Source: an uncultured Saprospiraceae bacterium (GTDB taxonomy: Bacteria; Bacteroidota; Bacteroidia; Chitinophagales; Saprospiraceae). Taken from it: a stretch of 64,000 bases of DNA. Shown here piece after piece: positions 44,920 through 54,239 of the stretch. The stretch lies in NCBI GenBank assembly GCA_937950315.1, contig CALFDU010000028.1, positions 1 through 64,000 on the forward strand, written 5' to 3'. Under the pieces are notes generated by a model. It was not told the DNA's origin. It ran no database searches and worked only from the letters and a program-made list of their open reading frames with translations. The stretch's first letter is position 1; every line of letters begins with the position of its first letter. Made by a program: the position numbers and the translations under genes.

Positions 44920-45951
44920 TTATCCGAACAAAGTCAATTGCGGATTTTTCATGGACTCAAATAAATCTGTGTCTAATTCGATCTTCCTTATTTCGTTGAA
45001 ATAAACTTTTTTAGCCAAACGTAACTGTTCCTTTATGGAATCAGCAAAGCTACCAGTACCTATCATTCGCTGACCAAGGCGATTACCTGTCTCTTTGCTT
45101 GTGTGTAAGTTGGCTATCTGATCCATTATTTTGTCGTACTTACTTGGGTAAGATTTCTGTAACCAATCTCTAAAATCATCTTCCGTTTCATCATTCAGAC
45201 GAATGACAATGTGGTTGATGTCATTTGCACCATGGCTAGCAACGGTACGAACGAGTGGCATAATTTCGTGATCGTTGAGGCCAGGGATTATCGGAGCTGC
45301 AAGCACTGATACTGGAATCCCTTCGGTGGATAAATGTTTGATGGTTCTTAATCTTGCGAAAGTGGAAGAAGTTCTAGGATTCATTTTTTGTCTTAAGCGA
45401 TCATCTAGGGTGTTAAGTGAGATGGTCACTTTTACCAAATTGTGTGAAGCCAATTTTTTCAATACATCAAGATCTCTAATGATCAATGCATTTTTGGTTG
45501 TAATCTGAACTGGGTGTTTGAATTCCCAAAGAACTTCAAGAATTGCGCGAGTCAATTCTAATTTATCTTCTATTGGAAGATAGCAATCAGTGTTTCCTGA
45601 AAGTATGATTGGTGATACTTTCCAGGAAGCACTTGAAAGCTTCTTACGCAATAGTTCGGGAGCATTCTCATTGATAATGACTTTTGTCTCAGTATCTAAG
45701 CTAGGACCAAAGCCCCAAAAAGGATTGCTTTGTTTTTCTCCTAGCGTTTCATACGGATTCATCAAATAGTCCTCAAGAATATCGGAATGGGTCACTGATG
45801 CTAAAATCGAATGGGATCCCGAAGGCTTGCAAGCTGCTTTTGGATTGGGACCCGATTCTAGTTCTACAATAGTATCATTCAGTAGGTTGTCAAATCTTCC
45901 TGAAGGTTGAAATTGTGACCTTCTTCCTTTAATGGTTTTTAGATTATTCAT
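44920..45951 (-). CDS. PA0069-family radical SAM homologue lacking the cluster cysteines
   Basis: This encodes 343 residues. Nearly every landmark of the PA0069/SplB-like family is present: K-G-R-x-x-Q-F at 8-14, M-N-P-Y at 64-67, L-D-T-E-T-K-V, N-A-P-E-L-L-R-K, L-S-G-N-T-D-C-Y-L-P-I-E, I-T-T-K-N-A-L-I-I-R-D-L-D, P-I-I-P-G-L-N-D-H-E-I and the C-terminal Q-L-T-L-F. But where relatives have N-P-Y-x-G-C-E-H-G-C-x-Y-C-Y, this one reads N-P-Y-E-T-L-G-E-K-Q-S-N-P (residues 65-77): the C-x3-C-x2-C motif is replaced and shortened by about 7 residues in frame. Only two Cys remain. It should not hold a [4Fe-4S] cluster or do radical chemistry. A consensus promoter precedes it. Confidence 0.85.
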   Translation of the reverse strand: MNNLKTIKGRRSQFQPSGRFDNLLNDTIVELESGPNPKAACKPSGSHSILASVTHSDILEDYLMNPYETLGEKQSNPFWGFGPSLDTETKVIINENAPELLRKKLSSASWKVSPIILSGNTDCYLPIEDKLELTRAILEVLWEFKHPVQITTKNALIIRDLDVLKKLASHNLVKVTISLNTLDDRLRQKMNPRTSSTFARLRTIKHLSTEGIPVSVLAAPIIPGLNDHEIMPLVRTVASHGANDINHIVIRLNDETEDDFRDWLQKSYPSKYDKIMDQIANLHTSKETGNRLGQRMIGTGSFADSIKEQLRLAKKVYFNEIRKIELDTDLFESMKNPQLTLFG

Positions 45952-45988
45952 GTTAGGTGCTATTATTATCTAATGTCGAATTACTCGT

Positions 45989-46019
45989 CAAATATATGGC
46001 GAGATTTTCGCATTGTCAA
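45989..46019 (-). promoter_or_regulatory. Promoter for the radical SAM-like gene
   Basis: On the minus strand TTG (46019-46017) and TATATTTG (45996-45989) are 20 bp apart, a full match to the Bacteroidota consensus, 37 bp before the ATG. Confidence 0.7.
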
Positions 46020-46131
46020 ATTTTCCGACATTTTTCGTCGAATAATTTAGCTGTCTTACATAAATAATCGAATTACACAGAATGCGTATTTGCCCGAAAG
46101 GGCCCAAAACATTAAAGAAAAGGTATTAAAT

Positions 46132-47415: not shown

Positions 47416-50400
47416 TTAATTAACTTTTATGAATCTTTCTAATTTTTCTGATTTGTAAGAGCCCATCAACAATAGATAAGCACCTGAATCATATTGCGAA
47501 ATATCGACACTTATTACTTTATCATCTGGATTAACATCCATACGCTCGACCATTCGTCCATTCATATCTCTGATCATAATAAATCCACCCTTTCCTTCTG
47601 GAATCGCATTGATGTTGATATTCAAAACATCTGTTGCCGGATTAGGATACATATAGAAACTTACTGGCGCATTTGCAACTACACAACCATCTGTAACGCT
47701 TACAGGATTAGATAAAGCAAAACAAGTTGACCATTTATTGATATTAAATCCAACTGCGTAGTTATTAATTGGTTCGTTGTAACAAACACTGTATACCAAC
47801 ATATTGCCTGATCCATCTCCTATGTTATCAAGATCAACCAAAGTATCTGATTCAATCGCAAGTATATCTCCGTTCAATCCAGTAAATACCAGATCGCAGC
47901 TTGATCCAACATTATTGGTCACAACAAATTCTGTAAGATCGGATATTCCATCAAAGCTACAGATATCCATTGAGGTACCTGAACCTGTGAAAGTTAGATT
48001 TCCTCCTGAGACAAAGTTTTTGAATACCTCAATCGGTGTAGATAATCCGAAGCATCCGGTAAGATTTACTTTATTCAATCCAACTTCCAATCCTTCCAAT
48101 CCTGGGGCATAAGTAATATGATACAGATGACAAGTGCTTGGACCAAAACCTTCCAAATCAAAATCAGGACCTGTAGGTAAATCCAAAATCACTCCTGCTT
48201 CATCTGTCAACAACCATCCTTCAAGATATCCTGAAGAGTTGTCAGACAATATCGTTGTGAATGGATCCGGCGCGCCATCTCCACTACAAATTGTAAACGA
48301 GCTAAGACCATCTTCCGTAGTAAGGTTACCACCAAGAATGGCTTCTCTATTTACTTCAATTGAATTGGAAATATTAAAACAACCTGAAAGTGCATCTAGA
48401 TTTGATCCAACAAAATCTCCATCAAGAGGACCGTGCCATGCAACAAAATAAATATAACATACGCCCAATGGTGCTCCTTCAAAATTAAAGACATTGCTGT
48501 CTTGGACAGCTAAAATATTTCCAAGTGCGTCAGTCAAAATGTACTCTGTAAATTGACCATATGAAGTTGAATTAATTACAACTACTTCATCTTGAAGGCC
48601 ATCGCTAGAACATACCGTTATTATGCTTCCAATGTCTGTAGTAATTGTTCCTGCATCAGAAACATTTGCATTCACCTCAATTGGATTAGACAAATCAAAA
48701 CAACCTGACAAAGATGTAAGTGGCCAATCAACAGCAAGACCCGCAAGACCATCTCCGTAGCAAATATTATAAATGTAGCTCGTAGAAGATGTGCCCGACC
48801 CTGTCAAAGCAAATGGAGGACCCGAAGGCAAACTTGTAATCAAGCCATCTTCATCTGTTATAACCCATGCACAATTGTCACCACTGTTGCCAGTCAATGT
48901 TACATCTACTGTAAAAGTATTTCCACTATCTAAACAAACATCAACTACTGTAGCACCATCAGAAGAAATCATTCCTCCTTCTGAGCTTGATCTTATGATT
49001 GTAATAATATTAGAAAGACTGTGGCATCCGATAAGGTCAGCAACATTCAATCCAACCACGACACCGGCCAAGCCTGACTGGTATGTGATACATTGAATAT
49101 AACATACTCCAACATCGGCTCCTTCAAAATCAAAGGTGTTGTCTGACATGATTGCTAAGATTATACCGTTGTCATCTGTTACTACACATTGTGTGAACGG
49201 TCCAACAAAATCTGTATGCTCTACTGTAATTAAATCTGGTTCGCCATCGCCAACACAAGCAAGGAATGTTGTTCCTTGATCCGAAGTAATCATTCCTCCT
49301 TCTGTTCCATTTTTGGTAATTGTGATAGGGTTTGATAAATCAAAACATCCTGTCACGCCAGATACATTTGCCCCTATGGTAGCTCCATTGATTGATCCAG
49401 AGTATGAAAGATTCCAAACCTGACATACACCCGTTGTTCCTTCAAAATCAAAAACATTGGTAGCTGGTAAATCAAGTATGTTCCCATCGGTATCGGTTAC
49501 AACCCAAACTGATGTCCCAATATTTCCCGTAAGGTTAACAGTAAACGCATCTGACTCTCCGTCACTTGTACAAAATGTAGCCTCGGTTGTACCGTCGGTC
49601 AAACTGATTGTTCCACCTTCAGATTCTGTTCTTATGACAGTAATCCAATTGGACAAATCATGGCAACCTTGTAGTGATAGTGCGTTCTCTCCTACTCCCA
49701 ATCCTATTAAACCATCTTCGTATGAAAGATGCCAAATAAGACAAGTTCCAATTCCTACATTTTCAAAATTAAATGAGTTGGATGTTGCTAATTCAAGAAT
49801 AACTCCATCGGCGTCTGTTACCAACCATTGTGAATTTGTACCATCGTTTCCGGTAAGGGTAACATCTATTACGTCATCTATCCCATCGTTTACACAAATG
49901 GATATATCAGATCCTAACGGTGTAGATATGTTTCCACCGTTGGCACTTTGCTTCGTTACAATTATTTGATTTGAAAGATCATGACATCCACTGATGTCTG
50001 CTGTATTTGAACCCACTGAAACGCCTGATACTGTTCCTGAATATGCAAGGAAAAATATTTGACAAGTGCCAGTTGGGTAATTATTAAAGTTAAATGGTGG
50101 ACTTCCCGGAGTATCTATGATATTTCCTGCGGTATCTGTGATCAACCATGCTCCAGCAGTACTTGCGTTGCCTTGAACATTTACATTTACGAAATCGCTA
50201 TTGCTATCTCCAACACAAAGGCTGGTTTCAAACGTGCCGTCATCCAATGAGATGAGGCCTGCATCCGCTTGATTTCTCACAACAGTAATCGGATTAGATA
50301 AACCAAAGCATCCATCAAGATTTGCTGCATTGGCACCCATCGAAGCTCCTGTCAAAGTTCCTTCATAGCTTACATGCCATATCTGACATATTCCAGCTGG

Positions 50401-53400
50401 TGCTGCTTCAAAACTAAATGGTGGTGCTGCTGGTAATTCCAAGATATTTCCTTGATCATCTGTAATGATCCATTGGTTGCTTGAACCTGTATTTCCTGTG
50501 ACGACTGCATCAACAGCCATTGAGTTTCCATTTCCTACGCACACCTCAACAGTCGAACCTAAGGTTGAAGAAATTGAACCTGCTGTGACTGAGGTCAAAG
50601 TCAAAGGCACCCCATTGGAAAGCCCAATACATCCTGACAACCCAGCAATTGGTGCTCCAGTCGACAATCCATCGACAGGACCGCTAGAAGCAAGGTGATA
50701 AATGGTATATTCTCCCTCATTGACATTTGTAAAATCAAAAGTCGGAGAACTTGAAATATTTTCTATTCTATTTGATGCAGCATTAACCAAAAGGAATTGT
50801 GAATCTGCTCCTACATTTCCAGTAATGGTATAACTAACAATACCAGATTGAGCTGGTATACATAATACATTTAGTGGCGCAGTTAATGTACCAGCAATTA
50901 CTTCTGACCTTACAACTGAGATTGGATTTGAAAGTCCAAAACAGCCAGAAAGAGCAGATACATTGTCACCGACTTGTCCACCCACAAGACCTGCCTCATA
51001 GGTTAAGTGATAAAGATTACAAGTCCCTGCTCCCGTTCCTTCAAAGTCAAATGGAAGCGTTGCATTTGCGTTTAATATGTTGCCATTGGCATCAGTCACC
51101 AACCAAACGTTGTTGGCTCCTGTGTTTCCTGTTACTACTGCATCTACTAAATCTGGAACTCCATCTCCAACACAAGCGCTGATTGTACTTCCTTGTGTTG
51201 AACTGATTGAACCAGCGGTGATATCAGCTGTTGAAACCGTGACTGGATTTGAAAGCGCAAAACATCCGCTTACTTCGCTGAAATCTTGTCCATTGGCAAG
51301 ACCTCCTAAACCTCCATTGGAAGATACATGGTATACCGTATATGTTCCTGCAGCAAAAAAGCTAAAATCAAATGTTGGAGAAGTTGAAACTGAAACGATA
51401 CTTCCGCTATTATTTACCAATACGTATTCTGATAGTGGTGATGTTATTCCTGTCGTATTAAAACTCAAAGCAGTTTGTCCACCCGCCAAACAAATAGATT
51501 GAGAAGGCGTTGTAATGGTTGCTGCATCAAAACTCTGTCTTACAATGGTCACTGGATTAGACAAATCAAAACAACCAGAAATATTTGCTGCATTCTGTCC
51601 AACCACATCTCCGGTTACTCCACCGGTAGAAACCAATTGCCACACAAGGCAAGTACCAGATCCAGCCGCATTGAAGTCAATGGTTGTTCCTGTTTGTGTT
51701 TCTAATATATTTCCTGCTTCATCGGTAATAAGATAGTTGACCGTAGTTCCAAACTGTTCGCCAGTTAAATTTAATTCGTAAACAGCATTTGTGTTGTTCA
51801 GACAGACAGAAATACTTGTCTGGCCATTGATATCTATGTTGGAAGCTTGCACGCTTGTTTTATCCACCAATATTGCATTGGACAATCCAATACATCCTTC
51901 AATATCATCTACATTTTGTCCTATTGCTAAATTGGTCTGACCTACTGATGATAGGTGATAAACAAAACATAAGGGCTGATCTACTCCTGCGAAAGTCAGA
52001 GGTAAGTCGTTCTGCACGGTTAACACATTATTATTTGCGTCAGCGATAATCCACTGAGAGCTTCCAGAATTTCCTGTAATTGATGGTGTTAATGACTCAC
52101 TTGATCCTTCACAAATTGTGAAAGTTCCAGTTCCATCAGGCGTAGAAATTGTTCCTGCAAAAGCTTGGTCTCTTCTAACTGTAATCCCATTGGATCTCAC
52201 ATAACAACCTGTAATATCGGTCAAGTTATTACCTACAACTGCTCCGTCTAAATTATCTTCAAAATGATACTCATAAAGAAGACACACTCCTGCTCCAGCT
52301 CCAGCAAAATCGAATGGTGGATCACCCGCCGGTACATCCAATATATTGCCAAATTCATCTGTAATAACATATGTTGAGTTTGGCGCATCGCCACCTACAG
52401 ACTCAACGTCTACCATAGCAGGTTGGTCTGAATTTATACAAAGAGTAATAGAAGTACTTCCATTTACCGTCAAAGAAGATGGTGATATCTCTGCTTTTGT
52501 AACGTTGATAGGATTGGACAAAGAAAAACATCCAATGATATCAAAAATTGATTGCCCAATGGCAAAATTCTGCAAGTTACCAGCAGTCATGATTACATAA
52601 ATCTGACATTCATCAAATTGTATGCTGTTTAAATCTATCGTGTTAGATGGTTGTGATTCAAGGATTACACCTGTGGTATCAGTAACAAGATACACTGCTC
52701 CACCTTGACCTCCTACTACATTCAGCGTTACGATTCCATTCACACCTGCACCGCATAATTCAAGTGAAGTTTCGCCATCGATATCGATGACTGAAGGGCT
52801 TGTGTTGAATACATTCACTGTGATAGGATTAGACAATCCATAACAACCATTGATACTTGAAATGTTGTCACCAACTGAAGGTACTATACTGGCATCATCA
52901 GCGGTCAAGTGATATATGAAATTGGTAGAAGTTGAACCTGTAAAATCATATGGAAGTGGAGCATTGATACTGATGACACCGCCTGATGCGTCAGTAAGAA
53001 TCCAATAATTAAACGCTCCTTGGTTGCCTACGACTGTAGGGTTTACCGTAAAATTGGTATCATCTCCACAAAATTGAATATCTGTACTTCCATTGACTGA
53101 TATAGAACCAGGCATGGCCAATTGTCTGTTTACAGTTACTGGATTAGAAATATCAAAACATCCTTCAATTCCTGAAATATTGGCGCCAACTTCTGCTCCT
53201 ATTAATGAACCTTCATGTGCTATTAAATACACCTGGCACACACCTGCACCCGCGTTTGTAAAGTCGAATGTTGGACCTGCTCCTGGTAAAGCAAGTATAC
53301 TGCCTGCATCATCAGTGATAACATAGGTTTGCAATTGAGAAACCGTACCAGTACTTAGGAAAGAAACTGAGTTTGAAGCAGTTCCATTGATACAAAGATT

Positions 53401-54147
53401 TGTTTCTACTGCACCACCATAGGTTGTTAGATCACCAGCGATGAATACTCCATCACCACACTCAGAAACAATTTTTAGTTCGTCAATATCCCAAGCTTGA
53501 ACACCGTAACCATTACCGACAAAACAGTATGGAAGGATTTCAAAGCTAAAATTGGTAGGAGTATTTACTAAGAATGCTGGATTATTAGAAAAATCAAATT
53601 CTTCTAAAGTCCATTCTTGAGTTGTACCTATATTATCTTGATGAAAAACTTGTATACCATTGGCAAAAACAGTCACAGCGTATCTTGTAGGATGGTTGTT
53701 TGGGCCAGAGATACCATCCACATACTGGAAAGTCTCTGGAGCTAGTTCGTAAAATGATAATGATGACAATCTACCTACGCCTGTTGCGTCTGGCGTTACT
53801 GTAACATCAAACTTCAATGCCTGAGACTGGCCAGGTTGGTAAAAACATCCTGCGTACGAGTTAATACACATTGCAATACCACCATCTACACCGGGTGCAC
53901 AAGAATGTGTATTCTCTGTAGGAACATCTCTATACAGAGTCGGATTGATCATTGATAAAGTTGAACATCCATCAGAATTGAAAATTGAAGGAACAAACTC
54001 TTCATAACTTTGATGGGTGCCAAAATTAAAATTTGAAACACATTGTTCAAAATCCCAATGGATTGTGGATGGATTTCCTGCCATCAAGGCATTTGTGCAT
54101 AAGAGAAAAAATAATGCAAATAATGATTGTTGTAATCGTAGCGTCAT
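47416..54147 (-). CDS. Giant T9SS surface protein with 18 tandem SNPI-type repeats
   Basis: This encodes 2243 residues. I chose the ATG at 54147 because it opens a clean signal peptide (L-F-A-L-F-F-L-L-C-T-N-A-L-M-A); an upstream ATG at 54201 adds a second hydrophobic stretch. Residues about 25-232 are a lectin-like domain shared with the 26255-28339 protein. Eighteen tandem units of 104-109 residues follow (about 235-2150). Each has an early Cys, then (W/Y)-x-(I/V/L)-T-D-x-x-G-x-I-L, a C-x-I-Y-H-like strand and G-C-F-D-L-S-N-P-I-x-V. I do not recognise this repeat in a named family. A type A sorting domain ends the protein (M-Y-P-N-P-A-T-D-V). Likely an adhesin or surface-layer protein. Confidence 0.88.
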   Translation of the reverse strand: MTLRLQQSLFALFFLLCTNALMAGNPSTIHWDFEQCVSNFNFGTHQSYEEFVPSIFNSDGCSTLSMINPTLYRDVPTENTHSCAPGVDGGIAMCINSYAGCFYQPGQSQALKFDVTVTPDATGVGRLSSLSFYELAPETFQYVDGISGPNNHPTRYAVTVFANGIQVFHQDNIGTTQEWTLEEFDFSNNPAFLVNTPTNFSFEILPYCFVGNGYGVQAWDIDELKIVSECGDGVFIAGDLTTYGGAVETNLCINGTASNSVSFLSTGTVSQLQTYVITDDAGSILALPGAGPTFDFTNAGAGVCQVYLIAHEGSLIGAEVGANISGIEGCFDISNPVTVNRQLAMPGSISVNGSTDIQFCGDDTNFTVNPTVVGNQGAFNYWILTDASGGVISINAPLPYDFTGSTSTNFIYHLTADDASIVPSVGDNISSINGCYGLSNPITVNVFNTSPSVIDIDGETSLELCGAGVNGIVTLNVVGGQGGAVYLVTDTTGVILESQPSNTIDLNSIQFDECQIYVIMTAGNLQNFAIGQSIFDIIGCFSLSNPINVTKAEISPSSLTVNGSTSITLCINSDQPAMVDVESVGGDAPNSTYVITDEFGNILDVPAGDPPFDFAGAGAGVCLLYEYHFEDNLDGAVVGNNLTDITGCYVRSNGITVRRDQAFAGTISTPDGTGTFTICEGSSESLTPSITGNSGSSQWIIADANNNVLTVQNDLPLTFAGVDQPLCFVYHLSSVGQTNLAIGQNVDDIEGCIGLSNAILVDKTSVQASNIDINGQTSISVCLNNTNAVYELNLTGEQFGTTVNYLITDEAGNILETQTGTTIDFNAAGSGTCLVWQLVSTGGVTGDVVGQNAANISGCFDLSNPVTIVRQSFDAATITTPSQSICLAGGQTALSFNTTGITSPLSEYVLVNNSGSIVSVSTSPTFDFSFFAAGTYTVYHVSSNGGLGGLANGQDFSEVSGCFALSNPVTVSTADITAGSISSTQGSTISACVGDGVPDLVDAVVTGNTGANNVWLVTDANGNILNANATLPFDFEGTGAGTCNLYHLTYEAGLVGGQVGDNVSALSGCFGLSNPISVVRSEVIAGTLTAPLNVLCIPAQSGIVSYTITGNVGADSQFLLVNAASNRIENISSSPTFDFTNVNEGEYTIYHLASSGPVDGLSTGAPIAGLSGCIGLSNGVPLTLTSVTAGSISSTLGSTVEVCVGNGNSMAVDAVVTGNTGSSNQWIITDDQGNILELPAAPPFSFEAAPAGICQIWHVSYEGTLTGASMGANAANLDGCFGLSNPITVVRNQADAGLISLDDGTFETSLCVGDSNSDFVNVNVQGNASTAGAWLITDTAGNIIDTPGSPPFNFNNYPTGTCQIFFLAYSGTVSGVSVGSNTADISGCHDLSNQIIVTKQSANGGNISTPLGSDISICVNDGIDDVIDVTLTGNDGTNSQWLVTDADGVILELATSNSFNFENVGIGTCLIWHLSYEDGLIGLGVGENALSLQGCHDLSNWITVIRTESEGGTISLTDGTTEATFCTSDGESDAFTVNLTGNIGTSVWVVTDTDGNILDLPATNVFDFEGTTGVCQVWNLSYSGSINGATIGANVSGVTGCFDLSNPITITKNGTEGGMITSDQGTTFLACVGDGEPDLITVEHTDFVGPFTQCVVTDDNGIILAIMSDNTFDFEGADVGVCYIQCITYQSGLAGVVVGLNVADLIGCHSLSNIITIIRSSSEGGMISSDGATVVDVCLDSGNTFTVDVTLTGNSGDNCAWVITDEDGLITSLPSGPPFALTGSGTSSTSYIYNICYGDGLAGLAVDWPLTSLSGCFDLSNPIEVNANVSDAGTITTDIGSIITVCSSDGLQDEVVVINSTSYGQFTEYILTDALGNILAVQDSNVFNFEGAPLGVCYIYFVAWHGPLDGDFVGSNLDALSGCFNISNSIEVNREAILGGNLTTEDGLSSFTICSGDGAPDPFTTILSDNSSGYLEGWLLTDEAGVILDLPTGPDFDLEGFGPSTCHLYHITYAPGLEGLEVGLNKVNLTGCFGLSTPIEVFKNFVSGGNLTFTGSGTSMDICSFDGISDLTEFVVTNNVGSSCDLVFTGLNGDILAIESDTLVDLDNIGDGSGNMLVYSVCYNEPINNYAVGFNINKWSTCFALSNPVSVTDGCVVANAPVSFYMYPNPATDVLNININAIPEGKGGFIMIRDMNGRMVERMDVNPDDKVISVDISQYDSGAYLLLMGSYKSEKLERFIKVN
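47690..53450 (-). repeat. 18-unit tandem array of about 320 bp per unit
   Basis: The DNA behind the G-C-F-D-L-S-N-P box recurs every 305-335 bp, near 47700, 48030, 48365, 48685, 49010, 49333, 49650, 49968, 50292, 50613, 50930, 51247, 51553, 51878, 52203, 52515, 52835 and 53142. Units are diverged at the base level, so the array is old rather than newly expanded. Confidence 0.85.
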
Positions 54148-54189
54148 ACTTTTTGGTATCTCGATATTAATCAAAAAATAAATAGTCAA

Positions 54190-54239
54190 GTTGAATTTCA
54201 ACGTAAGTTAAAGCGCGTGTTAAAAGTTAATTTAACACG
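54190..54239. promoter_or_regulatory. Two palindromes upstream of the giant repeat protein
   Basis: G-T-T-G-A-A/T-T-C-A-A-C (54190-54202, 1-bp centre) and C-G-T-G-T-T-A-A-A/T-T-T-A-A-C-A-C-G (54216-54239, 6-bp centre) are perfect inverted repeats 43-92 bp before the start. They look like operator sites; the regulator is unknown. Confidence 0.4.

Follow-up and report, generated by a model that had tools for sequence, protein, structure and literature searches.

The window analysed here, the first 64,000 nucleotides (nt) of contig CALFDU010000028.1 of an uncultured Saprospiraceae bacterium (assembly GCA_937950315.1, here referred to as genome G000), carries a gene for a homologue of the PA0069/SplB-type radical S-adenosylmethionine (SAM) proteins of the COG1533 class in which all three cysteines of the [4Fe-4S] cluster motif are lost. 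We consider it probable, at roughly 0.68, that this gene encodes an SOS-induced pseudoenzyme derived from a PA0069/SplB-type protein, which would act by binding and without radical chemistry. The reading draws on sequence comparison, namely on the selection acting along the gene, on predicted SOS operators at its promoter and on a second species of the same genus without the motif. The evidence base consists of assembled genomes, at least partly metagenome-assembled genomes (MAGs); 398 genomes of the family Saprospiraceae were surveyed, with about 183 assessable homologues.

Loss of the cluster loop

Known radical SAM enzymes bind their cluster via three cysteines. An earlier note, made from the letters of this DNA, had described an in-frame PA0069/SplB-like homologue at 44920-45951 (-) whose residues 68-75 read ETLGEKQS, and both its coordinates and its description are right; the open reading frame (ORF) starts with ATG. 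Compared with L002, its closest relative (genome G003, 72% identity), the window protein has exactly seven residues fewer at the loop, where the note had estimated about seven, and 0/3 cluster cysteines are left. Over the stretch containing the cluster loop of L002 it reads NPYETLGEKQSNPFWGF. The loop was lost through a 21-nt in-frame deletion together with substitutions. Just two cysteines occur in the whole protein, Cys41 and Cys123, both outside the loop. A frameshift as the cause of the loss, which the note had already discounted, is ruled out, since both other frames of that strand lack cysteines at the loop and contain stops. Moreover, a second, cysteine-bearing copy, for which a search had been advised, was not found in the window genome assembly (95.65% complete).

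The change is wider than the loop. Within columns 1-105 of L002, the window protein keeps 9 of the 30 positions that are near-invariant in the family and loses 21, while beyond column 105 it keeps 44 of 48 and loses four, with GNTDCY among the barrel residues still present. Window and L002 are 25% identical over columns 69-88, as against 85-95% for the intact congeners among themselves. Thus the earlier statement that the flanks realign at once holds for the realignment itself but understates the extent of the change, and the claim that the rest of the barrel is conserved stands.

Selection on the two parts of the gene

We used a joint codon model with branch times common to both parts of the gene and separate omegas (ratio of nonsynonymous to synonymous substitution rates, dN/dS), and ran it on the species tree and on the gene tree. 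On the window branch, the omega of residues 91-343 is 0.07 (species tree) or 0.055 (gene tree), with a background of 0.05; it does not differ from this background (p=0.29 and 0.86), and omega=1 is rejected on either tree (p=3.5e-10 and 2.5e-6). For residues 1-90 the omega is 0.30 versus a background of 0.08 (p=3.7e-5 and 0.0012), and the two parts differ from each other (p=2e-10 and 4e-9). The dN/dS check proposed in the earlier note therefore places residues 91-343 at background constraint and residues 1-90 under relaxation. The same contrast is found in G005, the second genome without the motif, with an omega of 0.06 for the conserved part and 0.22 for the N-terminal part, its dS being saturated. 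Neither Cys-less gene contains a stop or a frameshift. Because omega is low, neutrality is rejected and stops are absent, the remainder of the barrel is still under selection after the loss of the catalytic loop. Neither the constraint on residues 91-343 nor the reading frame, the loss of which would mark a pseudogene, has been lost.

Distribution in the family and the second case

The gene is present in 185 of the 398 family genomes, and 168 of these carriers matched the cysteine motif when searched with a nucleotide-level pattern. Two of the 17 pattern-negative carriers are truly motif-less. The other 15, further candidates for Cys-less relatives, were rejected: 13 keep the motif as CEHGC(V/A)YC, with other codons downstream, and G314 and G436 are contig-edge fragments. 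As a result, true loss is seen in 2 of the approximately 183 assessable homologues, those of the window genome and G005, and in 0 of the approximately 181 others, which takes the observation beyond chance. These two genomes belong to different species of one genus, in which five of the six genomes have the gene. Judged from the assemblies, motif loss within the family is confined to this genus, in two different molecular forms. The earlier note had suggested looking for the loss in close relatives, and one other species does show a loss of the same kind, caused by substitution and not by a deletion: the loop of G005 (protein L005) keeps its length and reads QKIDHYVRDGFD, and PYQKIDHYVRDGFDSNTQQYWGF is its reading over a longer cluster-loop stretch, again at full length.

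The Cys-less gene of G005 (L035:4984-6036 (-)) is also without the C-terminal near-invariant R309, G312 and G314 (L002 numbering), all three of which the window protein keeps. Elsewhere in the family, two radical SAM genes with an intact motif, L063 (G220:C15 near 68965-69045) and G022:C2:172278-173332, are seemingly frameshifted or split, by sequencing errors or true breaks.

Promoter and predicted SOS operators

The good promoter mentioned in the earlier note corresponds to TTTG-N20-TATATTTG at 46020-45989, which is the form typical of Bacteroidota promoters, and its picture is further sharpened by predicted SOS operators that the note had not seen (Table 1). TATATTTG is identical across all five congeners, and two dyads of the form TGTCGAA-N3-TTCGACA lie around the promoter in 5/5 congeneric carriers, the Cys-less ones included, and also in G005, where the gene has a different neighbourhood. 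These predicted SOS dyads in the promoters of all five carriers of the genus are new here. The counterparts of SOS box 2 are TGTCGAATAATTCGACT in G004 and TGTCGAATAATCCGACA in G005, and the dyad-bearing promoter region is the best-conserved non-coding stretch upstream of the gene among the five congeners.

Table 1. Positions of the gene, its parts and its predicted control elements in the window.
Feature	Position	Strand	Basis
Cys-less PA0069/SplB-like radical SAM homologue, 343 aa, single copy	44920..45951	(-)	ORF, NF033668 and Pfam profiles
Residues 68-75, ETLGEKQS, lost cluster-loop site	45727..45750	(-)	alignment, 62 intact relatives
Residues 1-90, relaxed N-terminal third; GRGAQxNP, SPD and cluster loop decayed, frame open	45682..45951	(-)	omega, alignment
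Residues 91-343, conserved rest of partial TIM barrel and C-terminal part	44923..45681	(-)	omega, alignment
Bacteroidota-type promoter, TTTG-N20-TATATTTG	45989..46020	(-)	pattern match
Predicted SOS box 1, TGTCGGAAAATTTGACA	46014..46030	(-)	
Predicted SOS box 2, TGACGAGTAATTCGACA	45974..45990	(-)	

A genus-wide search for the dyad with one mismatch allowed gave 28 sites versus 6 for the reversed control; several weaker sites fall inside genes and are probably due to chance. Convincing sites outside the radical SAM genes lie before the gene of a DinB-type polymerase with IMS domains (G000, G003), before that of a DnaE2-type polymerase (G000, G001, G002, G003) and before recA (G001; the sites there are weaker in G000 and G002). 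The gene of an HTH-S24 peptidase (LexA-like) repressor, at G000:C49:6027-6776 in the window genome, is likewise preceded by such sites in G000, G001, G002 and G003, in many cases by two of them spaced 22 bp apart. The start of the repressor gene was not locatable in G004 and G005, and recA of these two genomes has no SOS boxes within a distance of 250 bp. Family-wide, with up to 3 mismatches, the dyad occurs in 17 of 63 regions upstream of the radical SAM gene; a search inside the genes gave 1 of 63, and the reversed pattern gave 2 of 63. In silico, the operator is common to recA, dinB, dnaE2 and the S24 repressor gene, and because the same dyad precedes all of them, the radical SAM gene would belong to the predicted SOS regulon. 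Taken together, the operators suggest an SOS regulon controlled by a LexA-like S24 repressor.

SplB (COG1533) has been described as a conserved member of the SOS regulon in Bacteroidetes under LexA-like repressors (PMC8565304). Our data resemble that non-canonical S24 system in the palindromes before the repressor's own gene, dinB, dnaE2, recA and an SplB-type gene. However, TGTCGAA-N3-TTCGACA is neither of the two main motifs given there, and the strings 'Saprosp' and 'TTCGAC' are absent from the main text of that paper.

Family assignment and predicted structure

The window protein scores 321.1 bits against NF033668, the NCBIfam profile of the PA0069 family, over profile positions 1-348, which is below the curated cut-off of 360. 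L002, L003 and L004 pass with 458.9, 469.5 and 474.7 bits, and L005 of G005 fails with 272.8. Orthology to the PA0069 family (NF033668, COG1533/SplB class) is nevertheless indicated by locus and phylogeny: the clade of the five congeners has a support of 100/99, residues 8-342 align over the full length with 67-72% identity to the intact proteins of G001 and G003, and the window gene shares its locus with G003 and G004 as well as the same promoter. Apart from the score, it differs from the family in lacking CxxxCxxC and in its degraded N-terminal third. The Pfam profile PF04055 (Radical_SAM) gives 55.9 bits and is matched only from position 42 of 166, that is, without the cluster segment. Thus, homology to the radical SAM barrel is supported by PF04055 and by fold matches to spore photoproduct lyase (SPL), NifB and MoaA, while the CxxxCxxC motif for the [4Fe-4S] cluster is absent.

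The AlphaFold2 (AF2) model of the window protein has a mean predicted local distance difference test (pLDDT) value of 80; residues 1-35, 72-77 and 83-86 are below 50, and from residue 90 on values are mostly 87-98, being lower at about 251-300 and at the C-terminus. For the G005 protein the mean is 77, with 75-104 below 50. The top fold match of the window model in the PDB is SPL (4fhg, 4k9r, 4rh0; E 2e-7 to 1e-6, template modelling (TM) score 0.5-0.58), and a PDB sequence search found no full-length relative. SPL, a radical SAM enzyme of DNA repair that acts on spore photoproduct, possesses the cluster cysteines, whereas the window protein lacks these cysteines and shows 12-14% identity to it, so that the similarity is at the level of the fold only. 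A barrel without the cysteine motif is also a property of the proteins named 'pseudo-rSAM' in NCBIfam. The latter form established families that belong to peptide-modification clusters, unlike the lineage-specific loss described here, which affects a predicted SOS gene whose orthologues at that locus are intact.

Within the window genome, 16 of 18 radical SAM matches keep the cluster motif, so the organism does not appear to have abandoned radical SAM chemistry. The other motif-less match is a 216-aa ORF, L117 (G000:C23:10630-10911), with no CxxxCxxC-like motif by the pattern used; possibly it is of the QueE type, with a longer cysteine spacing.

Proposed role of the Cys-less protein

Since the [4Fe-4S] cluster would be lacking, reductive cleavage of SAM should not take place and presumably no SAM radical is made. 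The barrel may still bind its ancestral substrate, probably damaged nucleic acid, as the comparison with SPL suggests, or else a protein partner. After DNA damage the protein would then work via binding, in lesion recognition, protection or recruitment, and G005 would have reached the same state, probably independently. We infer, in line with the earlier note, a 'binding or regulatory' role.

Several points weigh against this reading. Near-invariant residues are missing from the conserved part as well: the window protein has lost four of them (K108N, Q139L, E205N and G299S, numbered as in L002) and G005 ten, which means that the site they retain is no longer intact. The amino-acid branch of the C-terminal part is 0.14 for the window and 0.05 for L002, about 2.7 times longer, and because of this and the changed near-invariant residues at 139 and 205, a mild relaxation of this part is possible. 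In addition, several branches have a dS close to or beyond saturation. The AF2 fold may be partly imposed, since the alignments used consist mainly of intact relatives. We infer the binding of DNA lesions from predicted SOS control and from the similarity to the SPL fold, at a TM score of about 0.5-0.58. Finally, for the function of the intact family, an open-access literature search found no paper with both PA0069 and radical SAM.

Alternative explanations

An unlikely but serious alternative is early decay, in which catalysis was lost recently and the constraint on residues 91-343 was inherited from before. Members of the family can do without the gene, as its 185 carriers among 398 genomes indicate, the N-terminal remnants still resemble L002 (75% over L002 9-28), and the C-terminal part is accelerated in the end branches of both Cys-less genes (0.14 for the window and 0.61 for G005, versus 0.05-0.08). 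However, by arithmetic on the codon-model values, the excess change that the N-terminal part has undergone since the loss corresponds to about 0.29 neutral substitutions per site. Residues 91-343, if neutral equally long, should then show a dN of about 0.33 on the window branch, and the observed value is about 0.08. Simulation over that time gives about 3 stops in the N-terminal part and 7-8 in the rest, and 0 are observed; the G005 gene is free of stops and frameshifts as well, and it retains promoter and SOS boxes although it is more diverged. The earlier preference for a repurposed pseudoenzyme over a dead gene is therefore supported by the selection tests, the second case and the open frame. 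An assembly or binning artefact in a MAG, for which the earlier note had left room and to which the 165 contigs of the window genome might point, has a negligible probability in our view: the frame is open, the whole N-terminal third has diverged in a codon-like manner over 90 residues, synteny and promoter agree with G003, and a second genome has the same kind of loss with a different sequence. It is very improbable, too, that the protein is still a metalloenzyme in which non-cysteine ligands or another protein hold the cluster or a different metal, so that SAM chemistry goes on. The barrel does retain GNTDCY, and the conserved part is mostly present, but the loop is missing or scrambled, with low model confidence at residues 72-77; cysteines 41 and 123 lie elsewhere, and cluster binding by three cysteines is the established arrangement.

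A different question is whether the motif was lost once or twice. A single ancestral loss in the genus, with the Cys-less version moved between the lineages of G000 and G005 or with two former copies sorted differently, would be compatible with a pseudoenzyme, and we regard it as rather doubtful. In the tree of alaS, the window genome groups with G003 and a sisterhood of G000 and G005 is rejected (approximately unbiased test, p-AU 1.6e-5); the alaS of G002 was joined from two fragments, making its long branch unreliable, and rpoB is missing or fragmentary in three of the six genomes. For the conserved part of the gene, the tree nevertheless makes the window protein and L005 weak sisters (81/83), and the neighbourhood of the G005 gene differs from the msrA/TP_methylase locus; both points speak for a single loss. 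Yet a gene tree with the window protein beside L002 fits equally well (p-AU 0.52), and the two Cys-less branches, both fast, can attract each other. Where both Cys-less genes differ from the three intact congeners, they share the same state at just 1 of 20 sites in the N-terminal part and at 3 of 11 in the C-terminal part, one of these three being the commonest state of the wider family. Moreover, the window gene occupies the ancestral locus, with msrA upstream and the TP_methylase gene downstream, in the same order as in G003 and G004. Because of the rarely shared N-terminal states and this position, two independent losses seem likelier than one plus a transfer.

Implications and a neighbouring gene

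As its orthologues at the same locus are intact, the Cys-less gene would offer a natural separation of function: what selection protects after the loss of the cluster should reveal which part of a PA0069/SplB-type protein is important beyond its radical chemistry. For an uncharacterised radical SAM family, the predicted SOS operators provide a testable DNA-damage-response hypothesis. We suggest tentatively, at somewhat less than even odds, that a DNA-repair-type radical SAM protein was twice independently made cluster-free yet stayed SOS-controlled and selected, and that, besides catalysis, the family plays a further part in the damage response, by lesion binding or partner recruitment, which can outlive radical chemistry. 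Our open-access search found no paper treating radical SAM pseudoenzymes as such, with incidental mentions only.

Further along the window, 47416-54201 (-) encodes a secreted-looking protein of 2261 aa. It is made up of many repeats with GCFDLSNPI-like motifs, and its C-terminal tail is similar to type IX sorting signals. An orthologue of 2043 aa stands beside the same genes in G003 (L032 574-6705).
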